64,000 bases of DNA from Gorillibacterium timonense (GCF_001457415.1 NZ_LN881723.1:405246-469245), one strand, 5' to 3'. Shown: positions 55,606 through 64,000, counted from the stretch's first letter. Notes: generated by a model not told the origin, from the letters alone. A program made the numbers and translations.

Positions 55606-55768
55606 CTACCGCGATACATAGCTGCGGCTGATACCTAGCTCCTTGGTGATCTCCCGCCTCACCTTCTCGGCCAAATCGTCCGTCACTCTGTCAAAAAATG
55701 TCGATCAGGGTGATTTCATATTCGATCCAACGAGCGGCAAAGGTGGCGAACTTCACATCCTTATCGGG
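55606..55768 (-). pseudogene. Decayed sporulation sigma factor remnant (SigK-like)
   Basis: Minus-strand reading gives DKDVKFATFAARWIEYEITLIDIF, then after a one-base shift [24 protein letters not shown] and a stop. The first part resembles the SigK segment KLATYAARCIENEI; the second jumps to the ITLIDI, DDVAEKV and [16 protein letters not shown] blocks of the intact half at 55880. Two internal stretches are therefore missing. The first deletion joins at a GAAAT that occurs at both borders in the intact gene. It cannot encode a working sigma factor. Confidence 0.75.
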
Positions 55769-55879: not shown

Positions 55880-56236
55880 CTACCGCTTCTGCTTGTAAAA
55901 CTCATGATACAGCTTCATGAGCGCACGCTTCTCGATCCGTGACACATAGCTGCGGCTGATGCCCAGCTCCTTGGCGATCTCCCGCTGTGTCCGCTCCTCC
56001 CCGCCCGTATCGAGACCGAAGCGTCCGCGAATCACCTCTTGTTCGCGCGGGTCGAGAATATCCAGATGCGCATAGATTTTCGACTTCTCGATCTTGAGTT
56101 GTACCTTCTCGGCCACATCATCCGATTCACTTCCCAGGATATCGATCAGGGTAATTTCGTTGCCTTCCTTGTCCGTCCCGATGGGGTCATGAAGCGAGAC
56201 ATCCTTGCGCGTTTTTTTCAGGGATCGGAGGTGCAT
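55880..56236 (-). CDS. sigK: 3' half of sigK (SpoIIIC-like), interrupted by a skin-like element
   Basis: The 118-residue frame encodes only the C-terminal half of the late mother-cell sigma factor SigK: linker DVSLHDPIG, region 3, and region 4 with [15 protein letters not shown] and [24 protein letters not shown]. Intact SigK is about 235 residues, with regions 1 and 2 before the Met. Codons just upstream (EILMHLR) still match SigK, and homology stops at about 56228, as in Bacillus skin elements where spoIIIC and spoIVCB are fused by excision. A SpoIVCA-like recombinase gene lies 3.4 kb away. The N-terminal half is not in the window. Confidence 0.9.
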
Positions 56237-56240
56237 GAGG
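56222..56240. other. Probable element-sigK junction (attachment site)
   Basis: On the minus strand the sequence ACCGAAATCCTCATGCAC leads into sigK. GAAATCCTCATGCAC encodes the SigK residues EILMH, while bases further upstream do not match SigK and contain a TAG. The crossover of the Bacillus element lies in the same ENEILM codon region. The exact core cannot be set from one end. Confidence 0.65.
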
Positions 56241-56252
56241 ATTTCGGTTCTA

Positions 56253-56277
56253 ATGTCTATAGTGTTGCATGTCTATA
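56253..56277. repeat. Direct repeat ATGTCTATA just inside the junction
   Basis: ATGTCTATA occurs at 56253-56261 and again at 56269-56277, 16 bases apart in start position. Its place directly beside the sigK junction makes it a candidate recombinase-binding or spacer motif. It is short, so chance is possible. Confidence 0.45.
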
Positions 56278-56293
56278 CGTCCATGAATTAGAT

Positions 56294-56878
56294 CTATTCT
56301 AGGTGCTTCTCAACTTTCCTTACCCACTCAGGCAGCTCAGCAGATCGATAAATAACGCGTTTTTGGTCGGCTTCCATTACGATCTTACCATCTGACTCAC
56401 TATTGTCGACCAGAACCAAATGATCGATAAGATCAAGATGAGCAAGTAAATTCTCTATGGAGGTATGATGCCGCCTTATGATATCCTCAGATGGAATATG
56501 ATGACCGCCATTTTTCACCCGGGCGGCAACCCTTTCGATATTCAATCGATAGTCACCTAATCCAACATAGAACATGACAACCTCAAAGCCTTTATTCTTC
56601 GCTTCACGCATTTGGCGAATAACGTTACCGCCTGCCAAAGTCGTCTCGATTGAAAAATCACGTTTGTTACGAATACAATCTCTTACTATCTTAATTGCTT
56701 CTTTTCCGGCACTTACTTTGTAACGCTCGGGTTGTTCAGCATCAATCGCGCGAGCGAGTGCATCTGCATCAATATTTATACTAACACCAATACGATCCAC
56801 AATCAGATTGCGAATTGTACTTTTGCCACTGCCGTTATTACCAGCGAACACAAACATGGTTGCTAGTGGGCTATTCAT
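56294..56878 (-). CDS. Zeta-toxin-like P-loop kinase
   Basis: The 194-residue protein has a Walker A loop AGNNGSGKST at about 12-21, an INIDADALA motif, ETTLAGG and a late RVAARVKNGGHHIP block. This fits the zeta toxin/AAA kinase group, whose classic members phosphorylate UDP-N-acetylglucosamine and stop wall synthesis. Its start overlaps the preceding 65-residue gene by eight bases, the arrangement of toxin-antitoxin pairs. It is the element gene nearest sigK. Some family members are not toxins. Confidence 0.78.
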   Translation of the reverse strand: MNSPLATMFVFAGNNGSGKSTIRNLIVDRIGVSINIDADALARAIDAEQPERYKVSAGKEAIKIVRDCIRNKRDFSIETTLAGGNVIRQMREAKNKGFEVVMFYVGLGDYRLNIERVAARVKNGGHHIPSEDIIRRHHTSIENLLAHLDLIDHLVLVDNSESDGKIVMEADQKRVIYRSAELPEWVRKVEKHLE

Positions 56879-57068
56879 TGTAGAGCTCCAAATCCTCGAT
56901 ACGTTCTATTTTCCCATCGCTATATTCCCTAACCATATAACCTTCACTTGTTTTGTACACAATGTATGTGCCGTTAGCTTTTGCATCCAATTTCGCTCGA
57001 TCGCCTGTTAGTTTAATGAACTTATTTAAGTCCTGTATCCGGTTCACACGTATCACCGCCTGAGTCAT
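56871..57068 (-). CDS. Small partner of the zeta-like kinase, candidate antitoxin
   Basis: The 65-residue protein (MTQAVIRVNRIQDLNKF) is mixed alpha/beta with an acidic tail (RIEDLELYNE) and has no motif I recognise. Overlap with the kinase gene and order (small gene first) suggest an antitoxin. Epsilon-type antitoxins are helical, and this one does not clearly resemble them. Confidence 0.55.
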   Translation of the reverse strand: MTQAVIRVNRIQDLNKFIKLTGDRAKLDAKANGTYIVYKTSEGYMVREYSDGKIERIEDLELYNE

Positions 57069-57207
57069 TGTGTTATTCAGGAATTAGCCTCAACCATCTA
57101 TTCCTAAAATTATAACATAAGGACCTTTACACAAACAGCTAAGCTCATGATCTACCACTTGATGCCGACATTGCGGCGTCAATCACTTCAGTAACCATAG
57201 AGCATAA

Positions 57208-59634
57208 TTATAAGTTCATTCCGTGATATCCCATTGCAGCATAACCCTTGACACGTTTCTTGTACATGGCCATAAGCATCGGTACCTGCAAGTCTACATA
57301 ATCATAAATCTGCACATCAAGTTTATTGTGATGGGTTCGATGAAGACGTCCAGCATATTGCTGAAGCGTCCCCTTCCAAGAGATGGGATGGACCAGGAAT
57401 AACGTATCCAGCCGCGCATCGTCAAAACCCTCTCCGATCAGCTTTCCGGTAGCAATAAATACTCGTTCTTCGGAATCGGATATGGAAGCGATTTGCCCCC
57501 TTAAGGCTTCCCGTTGCTTTTTCCCCATACCACCACGCAGGACAACCACATTCTTTGCAAAATGCTTCAGGCGATTTTCAAAGTATTCCACATGAGCGGT
57601 ACGTTCCGTCAAAAGGATTGGTGATCGCCCTTGATCCAACGCCTTAAGCAAGTCATCAAAAATCATGTTATTTCGTTCTTCATCTTCGACCAATAGCTTA
57701 TAGATCTCTTGAATGCCCGGTGAAAATAGGGCTTGAGGTGTACGGAAACTGGTATAGCGAGGAATCACTTTTTGCTCCAACCCCCGAGATTGAGCCTGCG
57801 ACTTCGCATCTATTGACACGCGAATCGGACCGCATTGCATGAGAACGATCGGTTGATGTCCATCCTTCCTGGATGGGGTTGCAGTTAGACCCAGAACATA
57901 TTTGGCCTTAGCTTTTTTCAACACCTGCTCAAAGCTAAAAGCCGAAACATGGTGACATTCATCTACAATGATTTGGCCGTATTCCTCTATATATTCCTTA
58001 ATGGCGCCTTTATAGTTCAAGCTTTGTATAACCGCGATATCTACGATTCCAGTTCGTTTGTCCTTGCCTCCGCCGATGATGCCAATATTCTTCTTGTCCA
58101 TTTTCAAAAAAGCACCCAGCCGTTCTCTCCACTGATCCATGAGCTCTCTTCGGTGGACGAGTACCAAGGTGTTTACTTTTCTGGAGGCAATAATAGAAGC
58201 TGCAACGACGGTCTTGCCAAACGCGGTTGTGGCCGATAAGATCCCCGTTTCATGAGTAAGCATAGATCTTGTAGCACCATCCTGCAGCATGGAAAGTGTC
58301 CCATTGAAGTTAACATCAATCGGACAACCAGGATTACGTTCGTCCGATACAACCAGTTCAATTTGATTCGTTTTCATTAAGTCCGACATTTTTCCATGAC
58401 AACCTCTAGGTATCGCAAGATAGTTGTCGTAATCGTCAAAACAGCCGATAACCCGAGGCTTGCCGTAAGTCGGCAATCTCATGGCCTGTGTCTTATAGAA
58501 ATCAGGATTTTGAAACATAGCCAAAGCTTGCAGCCTCTGAATGAATGGCGAAGGAAGCCCATTTTTTTCGATATAGATCATGTTGGAAAGAACTACTCGA
58601 ACCCGTTCGGGGAGTTGTCCCATATCTAATGATGGATTGTGCATTCCACCATCTAACCAAGGTCGCTCGCTATTTTCATCTTCTGTTTCATTCCATACGT
58701 TTGTGCCAAGTGGGGACTCCCCTTTCGTCAACTCTAAGACTAGTCTTTGAGCTTCACCCAAGCTAATTTTCCCAAGACCCGACAAGAAGCTCCACTGGTC
58801 GTGATACGGTTGAAACCGTTCATCGATAAAGACGCTGTTGCCTTCTATGCGAGGTCCCCCCTGCAGAGGCAAAGCAATCAAATTCCCAAAACCACCTTTA
58901 GGCAGCGTGTCTTGGTTTGGAAATAATCGATCGTAGGAGTCTAAAGAGAGCTGATAATGGCGCTCCCTTGTTTTGGTTAATAAGGCACTTCCTAATTTTC
59001 TGGCGAGACTCGCTTCTACCGGCTGATCAAAGAACAACCAGACATGCCCCCCGTTTCCCGAACGTGAGCGTTCAAGAGCTGAAGGAATATGATGTGCCTT
59101 ACAAGTATCCATTACAGCAAAAGCATCTTGCTTCCAATTGTGTTTGTCAAAGTCCATGGCAAGAAACCAGCAGGTTTCATCTTTTAGCATGGGATAAACA
59201 CCTACGGTACGGTTTATCTTTGCATTCAGATGGCGGGCATAAATATCATCCGATACCATTTCGAAAGCTTGATAAGAACAATTAGAGCATTTAATCCGGG
59301 GCTTATTACAAACAGGTGACCGATCATTCTTACAAACAGGTGAATATCCCGATTTCCCCGTTTTGCTTGTCCATCTAACGGGATATACATCCTCCCTCCC
59401 TCGAAAAAGAGAACGGAATAAAGCGATTTTGTCCTCTGGTCTCGATTGGAGGTGGACCTGGCCCACGGGAGGCTGTTCGTGATCAATAGTAATTTCATTA
59501 GTGGGTGTACTCTCTTTGAAATCATCAAGCTCCAAATATTTAGACAACTGATGTCTTAAATGTTGGTTTTCTAATCGAAGCGATTCAATTTCTTTCAAAG
59601 CCTGAGCAAGCCGCTGCTCCAAATTCCGATCCAT
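57208..59634 (-). CDS. TOTE-type primase-helicase fusion
   Basis: The 808-residue protein begins with a coiled coil (about 1-35), then a zinc-knuckle region with paired cysteines (CKNDRSPVC, CSNC; about 110-135). An archaeo-eukaryotic-primase-like domain follows, with LAMDFDKHNW (acidic metal site, about 175) and SRSGNGGHVWLFF (about 205). The C-terminal half is a superfamily 2 helicase: FGKTVVAASII, IIVDECHH (about 600), GLTATPSRKDG and QYAGRLHR. This architecture is that of TOTE conflict-system proteins predicted to act against foreign nucleic acid. It starts 46 bases after the recombinase stop and may share its transcript. ATG 59634 has GGGAGG. Confidence 0.83.
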   Translation of the reverse strand: MDRNLEQRLAQALKEIESLRLENQHLRHQLSKYLELDDFKESTPTNEITIDHEQPPVGQVHLQSRPEDKIALFRSLFRGREDVYPVRWTSKTGKSGYSPVCKNDRSPVCNKPRIKCSNCSYQAFEMVSDDIYARHLNAKINRTVGVYPMLKDETCWFLAMDFDKHNWKQDAFAVMDTCKAHHIPSALERSRSGNGGHVWLFFDQPVEASLARKLGSALLTKTRERHYQLSLDSYDRLFPNQDTLPKGGFGNLIALPLQGGPRIEGNSVFIDERFQPYHDQWSFLSGLGKISLGEAQRLVLELTKGESPLGTNVWNETEDENSERPWLDGGMHNPSLDMGQLPERVRVVLSNMIYIEKNGLPSPFIQRLQALAMFQNPDFYKTQAMRLPTYGKPRVIGCFDDYDNYLAIPRGCHGKMSDLMKTNQIELVVSDERNPGCPIDVNFNGTLSMLQDGATRSMLTHETGILSATTAFGKTVVAASIIASRKVNTLVLVHRRELMDQWRERLGAFLKMDKKNIGIIGGGKDKRTGIVDIAVIQSLNYKGAIKEYIEEYGQIIVDECHHVSAFSFEQVLKKAKAKYVLGLTATPSRKDGHQPIVLMQCGPIRVSIDAKSQAQSRGLEQKVIPRYTSFRTPQALFSPGIQEIYKLLVEDEERNNMIFDDLLKALDQGRSPILLTERTAHVEYFENRLKHFAKNVVVLRGGMGKKQREALRGQIASISDSEERVFIATGKLIGEGFDDARLDTLFLVHPISWKGTLQQYAGRLHRTHHNKLDVQIYDYVDLQVPMLMAMYKKRVKGYAAMGYHGMNL

Positions 59635-59680
59635 ACATCCTCCCAGGCCACACTTGGTTTGTTCCTGAATCAATCCGGTA

Positions 59681-61186
59681 TTAAAACGTAAAAATCTCAA
59701 CCGAATCCTCATACACCCGTATTTCCCGTACAACCTGCCGGATTAAATCTCGCTTCTCTTCAAACGCCAGCTCGTTTTGCCCTTTTGACAGATAATACTG
59801 AACGGCTTCCATCAGGACGTTAATGTTGTACTCATTGTTCTGCGTAGAATTCAACATATCAGACAACTCGGCTAGTTGGTTGATCAGAGCTTCCTCTTTC
59901 TGAGTTAACTCCTTCAATTCCTGCCGAATTTCCTCTTCCCCAATAAAGTCTTCACTGGCTGCAAACAATTTGATTAGTTTTTTTCGGGCGTTTTTAGTTT
60001 TTTCGATTTCCTTTTCGATCCTGGCTATTTCTCCAGTTTCAAAAGGCTCTTTTGTCTTCTCCTGTTGCAACGCCGCGGCAATTTCGTCAGGATTATTTAA
60101 CCAACTTGCGACTTGCTCCCATACTTGATCTTCGATCATCTGGGCTTTGATTCTTCTACCGCAGCCTTTAAGTTTTGCACCTGCAGTATTTTTAATATCT
60201 GTATACTCAGGAACCTTTTTGCCCCAATTATTTGATAATCGCCCGGTCATTGTATTGCCGCAGTCTCCGCATCTAAGCAAGCCACTTAATAAATATGGAT
60301 GCTTACTCTTCTGTGCCCATCTTCGACGTGATTCTGAAAGCAGTCTCTGGGCGTGTTCAAACTGGGCCTCTTCGATAATGGGGGGGCAAGGTATCAGGAT
60401 CCAATCACTCTTTGGCCTCTCCCGCATTGGAACCTTTTCCTCATCTTTTCTATGCTTGTTGCCAAGCATCCCTTCGGTATTCCAACGATTCTGATAAAAC
60501 TCGCCAATATAGGCTCGATTCATTATGATTTGTCTAACGACTTGACGATGCCATACTGGAGCTCCTCGTTTGGTAGGTACACCTTTGCTAGTTAAATATA
60601 GTGCGATACCATTTAACCCTTGAACCATTGTGTTCGGCTGAGTAAATAAATCAAAAATCAATCTTACGATTGCGGCTTCGTCTTCATTGACAAGGAATTG
60701 CTCCGACTCTTTGTCATAACTATATCCGTAGACTTGAAAATCTCTCAACACTTTACCTTGTCGCGCTTTTTCTCGTCTGCCGCGGCTCATTCGTTCGTTA
60801 ATTTTGGATTTTTCAAATTCGGCTATCGCCCCACGCATAGAATAGAACAGGTTTCCTTCCGGGGTTTTGGAATACTCTCCATTAACGAATACCAGTTCTA
60901 TTCCTCTTCTATCGAATTCATCCGTTATGATTAATTGGTTCATTAATTTCCGCGATAAACGGTCGGGATCCAGACATATGATTTTGCTTATGATCCCTTC
61001 TCTAACATCTTCCCGTAATTTGGTTAAGGCTGGTCTATCTAGAAACTCTCCAGATATCCCATCGTCCACATATTCTTTAACTTTATTCGTCTCCGCTTTC
61101 ATCCGACACTGACGAATCTGATCGTTCAGGCTGAATCCATGTTTTGCTTGTTCTTCTGTGCTCACCCTGGCGTAAATAGCGATCAT
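59681..61186 (-). CDS. Large serine recombinase, SpoIVCA-like
   Basis: The 501-residue protein begins MIAIYARVSTEEQA, with the catalytic Ser at residue 9, and has the resolvase core (DPDRLSRKLMNQLI, VNGEYSKTPEG, GAIAEFEKSKI), a recombinase domain (VWHRQVVRQIIMN), a zinc-ribbon part and a long coiled coil (about 385-450). It closely resembles SpoIVCA, which excises the skin element from sigK in the Bacillus mother cell. In the zinc ribbon the first CGDCG pair and the last Cys (GCGR) are present, but the third ligand position reads YTDIKN where SpoIVCA has YTCRKN. It lies 3.4 kb inside the element. Confidence 0.93.
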   Translation of the reverse strand: MIAIYARVSTEEQAKHGFSLNDQIRQCRMKAETNKVKEYVDDGISGEFLDRPALTKLREDVREGIISKIICLDPDRLSRKLMNQLIITDEFDRRGIELVFVNGEYSKTPEGNLFYSMRGAIAEFEKSKINERMSRGRREKARQGKVLRDFQVYGYSYDKESEQFLVNEDEAAIVRLIFDLFTQPNTMVQGLNGIALYLTSKGVPTKRGAPVWHRQVVRQIIMNRAYIGEFYQNRWNTEGMLGNKHRKDEEKVPMRERPKSDWILIPCPPIIEEAQFEHAQRLLSESRRRWAQKSKHPYLLSGLLRCGDCGNTMTGRLSNNWGKKVPEYTDIKNTAGAKLKGCGRRIKAQMIEDQVWEQVASWLNNPDEIAAALQQEKTKEPFETGEIARIEKEIEKTKNARKKLIKLFAASEDFIGEEEIRQELKELTQKEEALINQLAELSDMLNSTQNNEYNINVLMEAVQYYLSKGQNELAFEEKRDLIRQVVREIRVYEDSVEIFTF

Positions 61187-61326
61187 GTTTCTCCCTCCTG
61201 AACTTCTCTAGGAGATAATCATAACAGGCCATGCGTATTTTGTCATTAGAGTCACCCACAATCAATTTCACATGCACCCGGCATCCCTCCTAATGGAGAA
61301 TATGCGGATACGGCTTGGACACTTGA

Positions 61327-61370
61327 TAAAAATAAACGCGACCATAAACATGTAACATGTCTATGATCGC
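61327..61370 (-). terminator. Terminator after the pPIWI-RE/YhaM-like genes
   Basis: GCGATCATAGACATG pairs with CATGTTTATGGTCGC (two G-T or mismatch positions) around TTA, followed on the minus strand by GTTTATTTTTATC. It separates the pPIWI-RE unit from the recombinase unit. Confidence 0.85.
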
Positions 61371-61414
61371 TTAAGTTAATAGGTGGATAATCCCTAAAAG
61401 TGTCAGCACTCACG

Positions 61415-61558
61415 TCAATGACTGTGATAATCGGCAAGCACGAGATCCAAATAATCTTTAGGTATAGAACTACTGGTCTGCTTTGCTTCTATTTCTTTGA
61501 TCAAATAATACCCGACGAATTCTTCACCATCTCTTAAGTTTTTGATTAATGAAGTCAT
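61415..61558 (-). CDS. 47-residue ORF resembling the N-terminus of YhaM-type nucleases
   Basis: The ORF begins ATG at 61558, overlapping the pPIWI-RE stop by four bases (ATGA), and encodes MTSLIKNLRDGEEFVGYYLI, then KQTSSSIPKDYLDLVLAD and a stop. That pattern is the start of the OB-fold of YhaM-family 3'-5' exoribonucleases, which normally continue for about 300 residues with an HD domain. Nothing like the HD part follows; a terminator does. It is either a truncated gene or a small OB-like partner of the pPIWI-RE protein. Confidence 0.55.
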   Translation of the reverse strand: MTSLIKNLRDGEEFVGYYLIKEIEAKQTSSSIPKDYLDLVLADYHSH

Positions 61559-64000
61559 GATGTCACCTCTACATAATCTTCCTCCGAGTCCATCTCCACT
61601 TCCTCTTCAAACTCAGCATCGTAATCATAATCGTCTTCATTACCGGTTATATATTTCGATAATGAGCTCAGTACACGCATCGTGTACGGAAAAATGGTGT
61701 GCTTATCATAAGTCAACCCTAATCGTCTTAGATGATCCGCTAGAAGAGCAAGTTCATCCGACTCGTTTTCATTCTCTGCTCCTAAGGGAATGTATTCCAC
61801 AGCCCGTTGTTGGAGCAATAATTTGGAAGGCGATGAAAACTTGATTGCATCGTTAGCGATTCCTTTCCATGCATTCGGTCTTCCGCCCACACCGTAATAA
61901 ATACCTGCAGGGTCCTTAAAAACTCCTAATGCTTTAGTAAACCTGTTCATCTCATCATCAATAATGATTCGATATTGAGGAATGTCATCCGTCGCGTTAA
62001 TGCGGATGAACCTTAATCGTGTCTCATTGGCCAAACGCTCATTAAGATAAGGAACACGATCGCATTGTATTTTTGAATTACCGATAGCCCCCAACCAACC
62101 GTGTCTTAATGTAGCGTTGATAAGCACAATGACTTGCCCCGAACTTCGTTCTAGTTCACTGTGAATCTCAGCTGTGATAAATGCTTTAAACACTTCGCTG
62201 CTTTTATTTTCTCTTCGAGGATTATCAAGAAATTTAGATTCATCCATTTTCAGTGCCGCTTCAGACAAAGTCATCCACCTATCATTACCTAATAGCTTAA
62301 CACTGAGATCCGTGCCGTCTAATCTTGAAATGGCAGGCAGATATTTTTTTCCAGCTTTTATGACAGATATAGATAACAACGTTCCAGACGCATTGATCTT
62401 ATTGACGTTATCACTAAATAGACCATAATCGTTGAAAAGGTCTACTACAGCATTCAGAATGCGGGATAAATCTCCTTTCTCATCACCTGTTAGTGGGTGA
62501 ATAAATTGCGATAGTCGCCCTGTCATCTTCAATCCTTCCCGAATAGCTTTCTTAGGGTCGGCCCCCTCTCTCCACTTACTCTTCTCTTCAATTTCTACAA
62601 GAGCTAATACCGAGTGGTTAGGTTGTTCAACTTTGGAAAGTTGCTTCACAATTTGATTAATACGCTTTTCTTGAGCAATCGAGTTATCCTTATATCTATC
62701 AATCTCTAATTCCGATGTTATGATGTCTGGATTACAATGGACAAGTTCAACAATGAACTCTTTATCCGAATTTAATCTGAAGACGGAGTCAGAAATCTCA
62801 TCAAGAATAGTTACGTTATCAATTGACTTTTGCGCTGTAGATAGTTCTTTTATTACTGCTTCAAACATCTCGGTAGAACTATAAATCTCGATAGTTATTC
62901 GCTCTTCCTTAGGAACAACGATTGGAAAGCGATTGTCATTCATACCTCTAAGAGAAATATCAGGAATAAGTTGAAGTTCTCTTGCACCATAATTCGTTAA
63001 GAACCCTTTGGCCAAGTTATACAAACCGCTTTTCTCTGGAAGGCCGATTCCCGCTTTCACACTATTTCCAGTAAATAGATTGTTGTTCACGACATAAGCC
63101 GTGATTTCTCCATCCCCATCGGAATAGACCTTGGGATTCACAAGCAACGAATCTGCCTCGAAAGACTCCCCATTCAGCACATCCCAATACAATTCGTCTA
63201 ATGCGCTCTCCCATGATGTATATGAAGAGTTGCGAGGACGTCTTTCAAATTTCAATTGGGAAAATGAACGATCTAAGCTCGTAACATATGGATTTTGAAC
63301 AGATACCAAAACCGAACAGTAATGCCCAGACCTCATGTAGCACTTGCCTTCTTTGATTTGTACATCGCTCAAATACCTTCTTGTCCCCAAGGAAACCGTT
63401 AGTATGGCTCGATCAGCATCTCCCCCACGAGTCTTCAATGCAAATCGAATGACATAAGAAAATGGATCATGACGATGAGATTTTCGAATCGGATTAGAAA
63501 TGCATTCGTGTTTATCATTAAAGATAACATGATAGAATTTCAGCTCTTCACGTAGCTCATTACCTAAATCAAGAAACTTTGATTCCTGGCAGAACTTGAC
63601 TGCTGCCATGCCGGGAACCCACTGGTAGTTATCAACGAATTCGTGAACATCACCAAACGTAGAAGAAGCCCAAACAAGCTCCGAATCTCTTACGTCTTGC
63701 GGTAAATCAGGAATCGAATAATCCTTTAAATGTGCTAGCCATCCAAGCGTCAAATGTTTTATATACGATGAATGAATAGGTTTTGTGGAAACTAGCCAAG
63801 GCTGATCATCGAGCAACACCTTGTTGTTTGAACATACGCTTACGATTTCAGGAAAAATACTTTTAAGCTTCTTTCCTAGAGGTTCTACTTTAAATGCAAG
63901 CTTAAAGCGATCTGTACGCTCTCTATTAAAGAAGTTTCTCCAGCTCTCCGGCATTTTCATATAATAGATAGTTTCGTTATAAAACAGCGTTTCATCAATC
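61555..64000 (-). CDS. pPIWI-RE family protein, 5' end cut by the window edge
   Basis: The frame runs open past the ATG at 63960 to the right edge (preceding residues read DETLFYNETIYYMKMP), so the true start is outside. The visible 815 residues fit the pPIWI-RE (DUF3962 plus RNase H/PIWI-like) family: an N-terminal DUF3962-type start (MPESWRNFF), a C-terminal fold with VIVLINATLRHGW, the Arg block LRFIRINATDD, GIYYGVGGRP and the Glu block RAVEYIPL, and the closing LADHLRRLG. It ends in a very acidic tail. These proteins are argonaute-like and occur with a DinG-type helicase and a nuclease; those partners are not in view. Recognition is from memory. Confidence 0.75.
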   Translation of the reverse strand, partial: IDETLFYNETIYYMKMPESWRNFFNRERTDRFKLAFKVEPLGKKLKSIFPEIVSVCSNNKVLLDDQPWLVSTKPIHSSYIKHLTLGWLAHLKDYSIPDLPQDVRDSELVWASSTFGDVHEFVDNYQWVPGMAAVKFCQESKFLDLGNELREELKFYHVIFNDKHECISNPIRKSHRHDPFSYVIRFALKTRGGDADRAILTVSLGTRRYLSDVQIKEGKCYMRSGHYCSVLVSVQNPYVTSLDRSFSQLKFERRPRNSSYTSWESALDELYWDVLNGESFEADSLLVNPKVYSDGDGEITAYVVNNNLFTGNSVKAGIGLPEKSGLYNLAKGFLTNYGARELQLIPDISLRGMNDNRFPIVVPKEERITIEIYSSTEMFEAVIKELSTAQKSIDNVTILDEISDSVFRLNSDKEFIVELVHCNPDIITSELEIDRYKDNSIAQEKRINQIVKQLSKVEQPNHSVLALVEIEEKSKWREGADPKKAIREGLKMTGRLSQFIHPLTGDEKGDLSRILNAVVDLFNDYGLFSDNVNKINASGTLLSISVIKAGKKYLPAISRLDGTDLSVKLLGNDRWMTLSEAALKMDESKFLDNPRRENKSSEVFKAFITAEIHSELERSSGQVIVLINATLRHGWLGAIGNSKIQCDRVPYLNERLANETRLRFIRINATDDIPQYRIIIDDEMNRFTKALGVFKDPAGIYYGVGGRPNAWKGIANDAIKFSSPSKLLLQQRAVEYIPLGAENENESDELALLADHLRRLGLTYDKHTIFPYTMRVLSSLSKYITGNEDDYDYDAEFEEEVEMDSEEDYVEVTS

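Follow-up and report, generated by a model that had tools for sequence, protein, structure and literature searches.

A skin-type element in sigK of Gorillibacterium timonense with the gene content of a multi-system defence island

Results

A 52.5-kb element interrupts the only sigK gene

We analysed a 64,000-nucleotide stretch of the Gorillibacterium timonense genome (hereafter the window; C6:405246-469245 of 5.26 Mb), near one end of which an element interrupts sigK, as an initial annotation of this DNA had proposed. The genome, a Paenibacillus relative, is the sole member of its genus among the genomes surveyed. Using the profile TIGR02846 to locate sigK across the genome, we find two minus-strand parts: a 3′ part (profile positions 109-227) at C6:461140-461499 and a 5′ part (positions 6-117) at C6:513975-514307. 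The same search finds no other sigK in the genome, so the interrupted copy is the only one, and a second intact gene that would make the split irrelevant is ruled out.

55880..56245, minus strand: sigK 3′ half, codons ~113 to stop (TIGR02846 positions 109-227)
C6:513975-514355, minus strand, 52.5 kb away and outside the window: sigK 5′ half (TIGR02846 positions 6-117)
56232..56257, minus strand: attR, with the core GAAATCCT at 56238-56245 and the arm GACATTAG

Both sigK parts carry the 8-bp core GAAATCCT at the breakpoint, which lies at about codon 113, and joining the halves at this core gives an in-frame, correct SigK protein. The attR arm GACATTAG pairs with the attL arm CTAATGTC to form an inverted repeat round the core in the predicted attP, and the same arms are found in P. 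pasadenensis (G107), Paenibacillus sp. TCA20, P. paeoniae (G105), P. tyrfis (G084) and G277. The element is ~52.5 kb long; the window holds ~7.7 kb of it (the first 15%), and it runs 45 kb beyond the window end. From the sequence, it is close to certain that the element is both of the skin type and a defence island. A separate 57-bp stretch at window positions 55661-55717, ~220 bp past the sigK stop, shares 78% identity with a segment of the sigK 3′ half and is perhaps a trace of an old displaced sigK fragment.

A serine recombinase and a skr-like reading frame form a putative excision module

59681..61186, minus strand: large serine recombinase of the SpoIVCA/XisF type, 501 amino acids (aa) (Resolvase, Recombinase, Zn_ribbon_recom)
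61083..61277, minus strand: skr-like recombination directionality open reading frame (ORF), 64 aa, overlapping the recombinase gene in another frame
61286..61321, minus strand: DNA block directly upstream of the skr-like ORF, conserved in eight elements

The serine recombinase and the skr-like ORF, which the initial annotation did not name, lie within the part of the element held by the window. The recombinase is presumed to be the element's excisionase/integrase; its best NCBIfam match is XisF, with a score of 138 bits that falls well short of the 375-bit family cut-off. Most of its close relatives across Bacilli sit within ~11 kb of a sigK half, and the ratio of nonsynonymous to synonymous substitution rates (dN/dS) is 0.08 between elements, indicating strong purifying selection. 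The skr-like ORF begins upstream of the recombinase gene and reaches 101 nt into it; its non-overlapping part shows protein conservation in many Bacilli sigK elements, with the frame kept. In the skin element of Bacillus subtilis, skr encodes a 64-aa directionality factor with a 101-nt overlap with spoIVCA (PMC6957869), and the likeness is one of length and overlap. The conserved block upstream contains a CATA-containing -10-like motif without a clear -35 and is tentatively a candidate mother-cell promoter region with a ribosome-binding site.

We also considered a tyrosine recombinase as the main excisionase, which is less likely because it is the serine recombinase and skr that track sigK halves across Bacilli, and because the tyrosine gene of this genome is divergent and forms part of a set of three elsewhere. 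That set, a run of three tyrosine recombinase genes towards the sigK 5′ end, is present in G107 (G107:C6:159887-163454), TCA20, G277, G105, G010, G084 and G217; the present genome has a single divergent one, adjoining two bPH_2 genes.

One assembly bears on excision itself. In TCA20, sigK is intact and the element forms a separate contig of 63,008 bp that starts with CTAATGTCATAAG and ends with GACATTAGAATCGAGAT, exactly at the core on both sides. A break at the core would be expected from a mixture of integrated and circular states but not from either state alone, and this layout fits what excision would produce.

Defence genes are concentrated inside the element

56294..56878, minus strand: zeta-like kinase, 194 aa, Walker A motif GNNGSGKS (Pfam Zeta_toxin, E=7e-10)
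56871..57068, minus strand: 65-aa ORF preceding the kinase, 83% identical at the same place in G107
57208..59652, minus strand: TOTE primase-helicase, 814 aa from the start common with G277; the open frame extends to 59733
61555..64000, minus strand: pPIWI-RE protein, 824 aa, its start past the window at C6:469274 (pPIWI_RE_X, MID_pPIWI_RE, RNaseH_pPIWI_RE)

At a PADLOC threshold of E<=1e-8, 15 of the 25 element proteins scanned have a match and none of the 10 scanned elsewhere in the window does, and the density of defence genes is therefore not due to chance. Known or candidate defence genes occupy ~31 of 52.5 kb by summed coordinates, and at least five defence systems are represented. These six genes in the window, from the sigK 3′ half through the kinase, the 65-aa ORF, TOTE and the serine recombinase to pPIWI-RE, are on the minus strand. 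The earlier placing of a zeta-like kinase, a TOTE protein and a pPIWI-RE protein on one strand inside the element thus holds, the TOTE protein matching AEP-TOTE at E=1e-96 as well as ResIII and containing AMDFD and DECH motifs, and the pPIWI-RE protein matching PprPIWI at 348 bits (E=3e-104). The kinase had been described as a pair, of which one member stands: the other is the 65-aa ORF, in which Pfam recognises no domain, including no epsilon domain, and which is possibly a partner or antitoxin of the kinase. Kinase orthologues 93-96% identical (dN/dS 0.05-0.09) occupy the same element end in G107, TCA20 and G277, and the TOTE orthologue in the G277 element is 91-92% identical (dN/dS 0.15).

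Over its full length the element is arranged as follows, in C6 kilobases from the sigK 3′ to the sigK 5′ side.

first, at the sigK 3′ end: zeta-like kinase
462.5 kb: TOTE
464.9 kb: serine recombinase
466.8-473.4 kb: pPIWI-RE, PprDinG and PprRE
473.8-477.5 kb: McrBC-like pair, DUF2357-PDDEXK_7 and AAA/PDC-M26A
478.4-491.3 kb: DrmD/BrxH-type helicase, BrxA, PglZ, PglX, BrxC and BrxF (six-gene BREX)
491.4-497.6 kb: AddA-like and AddB-like helicase-nucleases
then: VWA, WYL regulator, Fic, IS110
504.8-508.3 kb: Drt3b and Drt3a
then, towards the sigK 5′ end: GIY-YIG, HD, two bPH_2 proteins, tyrosine recombinase

The pPIWI-RE triad is complete (pPIWI_RE, a DinG-type helicase with RE_Z, and a restriction endonuclease), as is the type 3-like BREX set of BrxF, BrxC, PglXI, PglZ, BrxA and an SNF2-type helicase, which we take to be the genes of type 3 BREX. 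The BREX helicase scores best with DrmD (1249 bits; BrxHI/HII, 352 bits). Both DRT3 reverse transcriptases, Drt3a and Drt3b, retain YxDD, and the helicases, zeta and BrxC retain Walker A or DEAH motifs; PglX, Fic and BrxF are identified by profile match, simple motif patterns having given no match. The defence genes are full length relative to their profiles. Compared between elements, TOTE, zeta, Fic, HD, BrxL, HsdR and the recombinase have dN/dS values of 0.02-0.15, with pPIWI and DinG too divergent to measure and MkoA almost without substitutions. As far as sequence can tell, these are not the features of inactivated remnants. Family by family, the cargo genes are likely to be protective against phages.

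Related elements in nine species share a frame and exchange cargo

In a family survey of 104 genomes, 84 score as having an intact sigK at the family cut-off. We define the element family by a serine recombinase identity of at least 89%, which gives nine species including this one. Two of the genomes, G277 and G217, were picked by the recombinase alone and their cargo was read only afterwards.

P. pasadenensis (G107), 54.5 kb: DarTG, type I restriction-modification (RM), PDC-S06, SNF2 pair, McrBC, Mokosh MkoA/MkoB, HerA-like, zeta (96%)
Paenibacillus sp. TCA20, 63.0 kb: six-gene BREX resembling that of P. mesophilus, with PglX as two ORFs; Mokosh, reverse transcriptase, zeta
G277 (closed genome), 48 kb: DarTG, type I RM, PDC-S06, McrBC, TOTE (92%), zeta (93%)
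P. paeoniae (G105), 64 kb: pPIWI-RE, type IIG RM, two McrBC-like sets, dynamin-like
P. mesophilus (G010), two contigs, ~73 kb if adjoining: BREX with BrxL, pPIWI-RE, McrBC-like, HerA-like
P. tyrfis (G084), 42 kb: type I RM, PDC-S06, pPIWI-RE, Fic
G217 (closed genome), 65 kb: pPIWI-RE (55-63%), McrBC-like, dynamin-like, RM-like set
P. filicis (G106), decayed copy at G106:C12:24042-60000 (L143-L144)

All nine elements carry defence genes, with a common core and swapped cargo, so that the initial description of a defence island extends to nine species, and unrelated cargo is not seen in any element with a close recombinase. The elements span 42-73 kb, with several defence systems each. The common frame consists of the recombinase and skr at the sigK 3′ side and of WYL-AddB-AddA and tyrosine recombinases towards the sigK 5′ side. 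Outside two close pairs, pPIWI proteins are 21-55% identical between elements, which suggests that this type of system has been gained on several occasions or has turned over. In P. filicis the recombinase has a stop, PDC-S06 is broken, and the element is not located at sigK, an intact copy of which sits on a different contig.

Genes for a WYL regulator and for AddB-like and AddA-like proteins occur in all nine elements (here at C6:491385-501293). They match no named PADLOC defence system and may form a module for defence, which would be new, or for maintenance of the element.

Other elements and a second insertion site in sigK

Elements whose recombinases are 56-64% identical occupy the same sigK site in G150, G267 and G275 and are prophage-like, as judged from ORFs read by eye. 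Many other sigK elements of Bacilli are small, ~4-12 kb. Another element of the 56-64% group in that sigK site, 30 kb long and in Fictibacillus nanhaiensis (G110:C11:730337-760622; L130-L131), has apparent spore-germination receptor genes, judged from ORF starts.

A second insertion site, near codon 60-67 of sigK, is seen in many surveyed genomes, for example G017:C1:5079481-5239750 (L024-L032) and G217:C1:1667029-1734571 (L157-L161). In many genomes an intact sigK is accompanied by several displaced 3′ fragments of the gene (~residue 60 onwards), all on one strand and spaced 15-60 kb from each other; in G017 the genes between these fragments are metabolic and not defence genes. In G217, an event of the codon-60-67 type seems to have re-supplied a whole sigK beside the remains of the copy split by the defence element. 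At L053, L064, L108 and L109, a sigK fragment that starts at ~residue 71 is immediately preceded by the gene of a second serine recombinase (32-33% identical), which is a candidate integrase for the codon-60 site. In the one-contig genome G078 (G078:C1:4151105-4217713), a pPIWI-RE gene lies ~35 kb from displaced sigK fragments.

Discussion

A defence island in sigK and how it may be held there

We assign a probability of roughly 85% to the reading that this is a skin-type sigK element and defence island, excised via its own recombinase and skr-like factor. A 52.5-kb site-specific mobile element would have integrated in sigK at about codon 113; its serine recombinase, aided by the skr-like directionality factor, would cut it out and so restore sigK. 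By analogy with skin, excision would take place in the mother cell only and the forespore, as the germ line, would retain the element; loss by the mother cell and retention by the spore are thus very likely. TOTE, pPIWI-RE, the McrBC-like pair, type-3-like BREX, DRT3, Fic and the zeta-like kinase are carried instead of prophage genes. The element belongs to a family of the Paenibacillus group whose frame is fixed (recombinase and skr, WYL-AddB-AddA, tyrosine recombinases) and whose cargo is exchanged between species. The interrupted sigK, its in-frame rejoining, the recombinase/skr-like module, the cargo, the family and purifying selection are directly legible in the genomes; mother-cell timing, excision in this strain and anti-phage activity we infer, and a functional link of immunity with spore development is unproven.

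Several observations weigh against this reading. Two family members interrupt no needed sigK: the P. filicis element, with its broken recombinase and an intact sigK elsewhere, and that of G217, which has intact sigK copies upstream. In a consensus search upstream of the skr-like ORF, no sequence stood out convincingly as a sigma-E -35 box. What TCA20 offers is indirect evidence from one genome assembly. sigK elements hold only 3 of the 11 pPIWI-RE carriers of the family survey, a count in which the model misses divergent copies in G010 and G105; that pPIWI-RE might be exclusive to sigK elements is thereby ruled out.

We consider it somewhat probable that sigK is a mere attachment site, with the cargo an ordinary island expressed vegetatively and immunity linked to sporulation by address alone. 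Other recombinase lineages place prophages or apparent germination genes in this same site, the second insertion group uses another sigK site with metabolic cargo, and most pPIWI-RE loci of the family lie outside sigK. The prophage cargo of sister lineages favours such an address for sigK elements in general. Against this, in the lineage at or above 89% recombinase identity, defence cargo is present in nine of nine species despite turnover, which argues that this lineage is specialised, although it is not proof of a developmental function. The decay in P. filicis and the insertion history evident in several tyrosine recombinase genes and an IS110 insertion might instead suggest a decaying prophage, or a composite of remnants with inactive defence genes. 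We regard this as very improbable and largely refuted: no phage structural or packaging genes are found among the element proteins scanned, and the defence genes are intact and under purifying selection; we therefore reject a prophage or remnant.

A further proposal, which we hold to be less likely than not, is developmental addiction, in which sigK needs the element's recombinase and imprecise loss or decay abolishes sporulation, locking the island into the germ line. The sole sigK of this genome is indeed interrupted, the recombinase is strongly constrained, and the one species with a decayed element, P. filicis, has an intact sigK. Yet precise excision would give a cured cell still able to sporulate, deletion of skin is stated to be harmless to B. 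subtilis sporulation (PMC10745906), G217 keeps a full-length recombinase despite its intact sigK copies, and decay is seen in one species only. The simplest reading is a mobile defence island for which sigK is the address, possibly stabilised by the dependence of sigK on its recombinase. We offer as speculation that the island is a germline-kept immune reservoir, in which obligatory mother-cell excision and sporulation-lethal imprecise loss would stabilise swappable defence in the forespore line, with WYL-AddB-AddA an undescribed defence or maintenance module.

Sporulation-intervening elements are usually seen as prophage remnants of unclear function. If our reading is correct, a whole lineage of sigK elements would carry multi-system anti-phage immunity, sited where the dying mother cell must excise it and the spore keeps it. 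This offers a testable answer to why hosts retain sporulation-intervening elements and suggests a hot spot for defence islands that tRNA-anchored island searches would overlook, and it makes WYL-AddB-AddA a conserved, uncharacterised module of defence interest.

Comparison with known systems

The B. subtilis skin element (PMC6957869) likewise interrupts sigK, encodes a SpoIVCA-type serine recombinase and a 64-aa skr with a 101-nt overlap, and rejoins sigK upon excision. Skin is a defective prophage, whereas the present element is a multi-system defence island in which we find no phage structural genes, and its core GAAATCCT adjoins, but differs from, the AATGA of skin. A temperate Alicyclobacillus phage also integrates in sigK (PMC13141910). 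Island IV of B. cereus biovar anthracis is a 22-kb sigK insertion with type I RM and without phage proteins. It comes out as a circle at a late stage of sporulation, and the authors of that study propose phage protection (PMC10745906). It resembles our element as a non-prophage sigK insertion with a defence system, but has one RM system in 22 kb and different att repeats, compared with several systems each in 42-73 kb across nine species. The gin elements of the Bacillus cereus group, in gerE, are also non-prophage elements excised during sporulation and carry RM genes and three recombinase genes (PMC5595907); their target is gerE and their recombinases are three serine enzymes, in contrast to sigK and one serine plus one to three tyrosine recombinases here.

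The initial annotation had suggested that an element linking immunity with spore development would be new; the physical link is not wholly so, since earlier papers describe RM genes in elements of sigK (PMC10745906) and gerE (PMC5595907). We find no report of the present element family in open-licence papers on sigK with a defence island, BREX or pPIWI-RE, and a family of multi-system defence islands at sigK appears to be new.

The individual systems (type 3 BREX, pPIWI-RE, DRT3, TOTE and McrBC-like) are alike in gene content to those described in PADLOC and Pfam; they differ in sitting in an element of the skin type, and the BREX set differs from known type 3 BREX in having a DrmD-type SNF2 helicase in the place of BrxHII. 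XisF of the fdxN element, in heterocyst-forming cyanobacteria, likewise acts in cells that differentiate terminally, where it cuts an element out of a gene; the phylum and the target gene are different.

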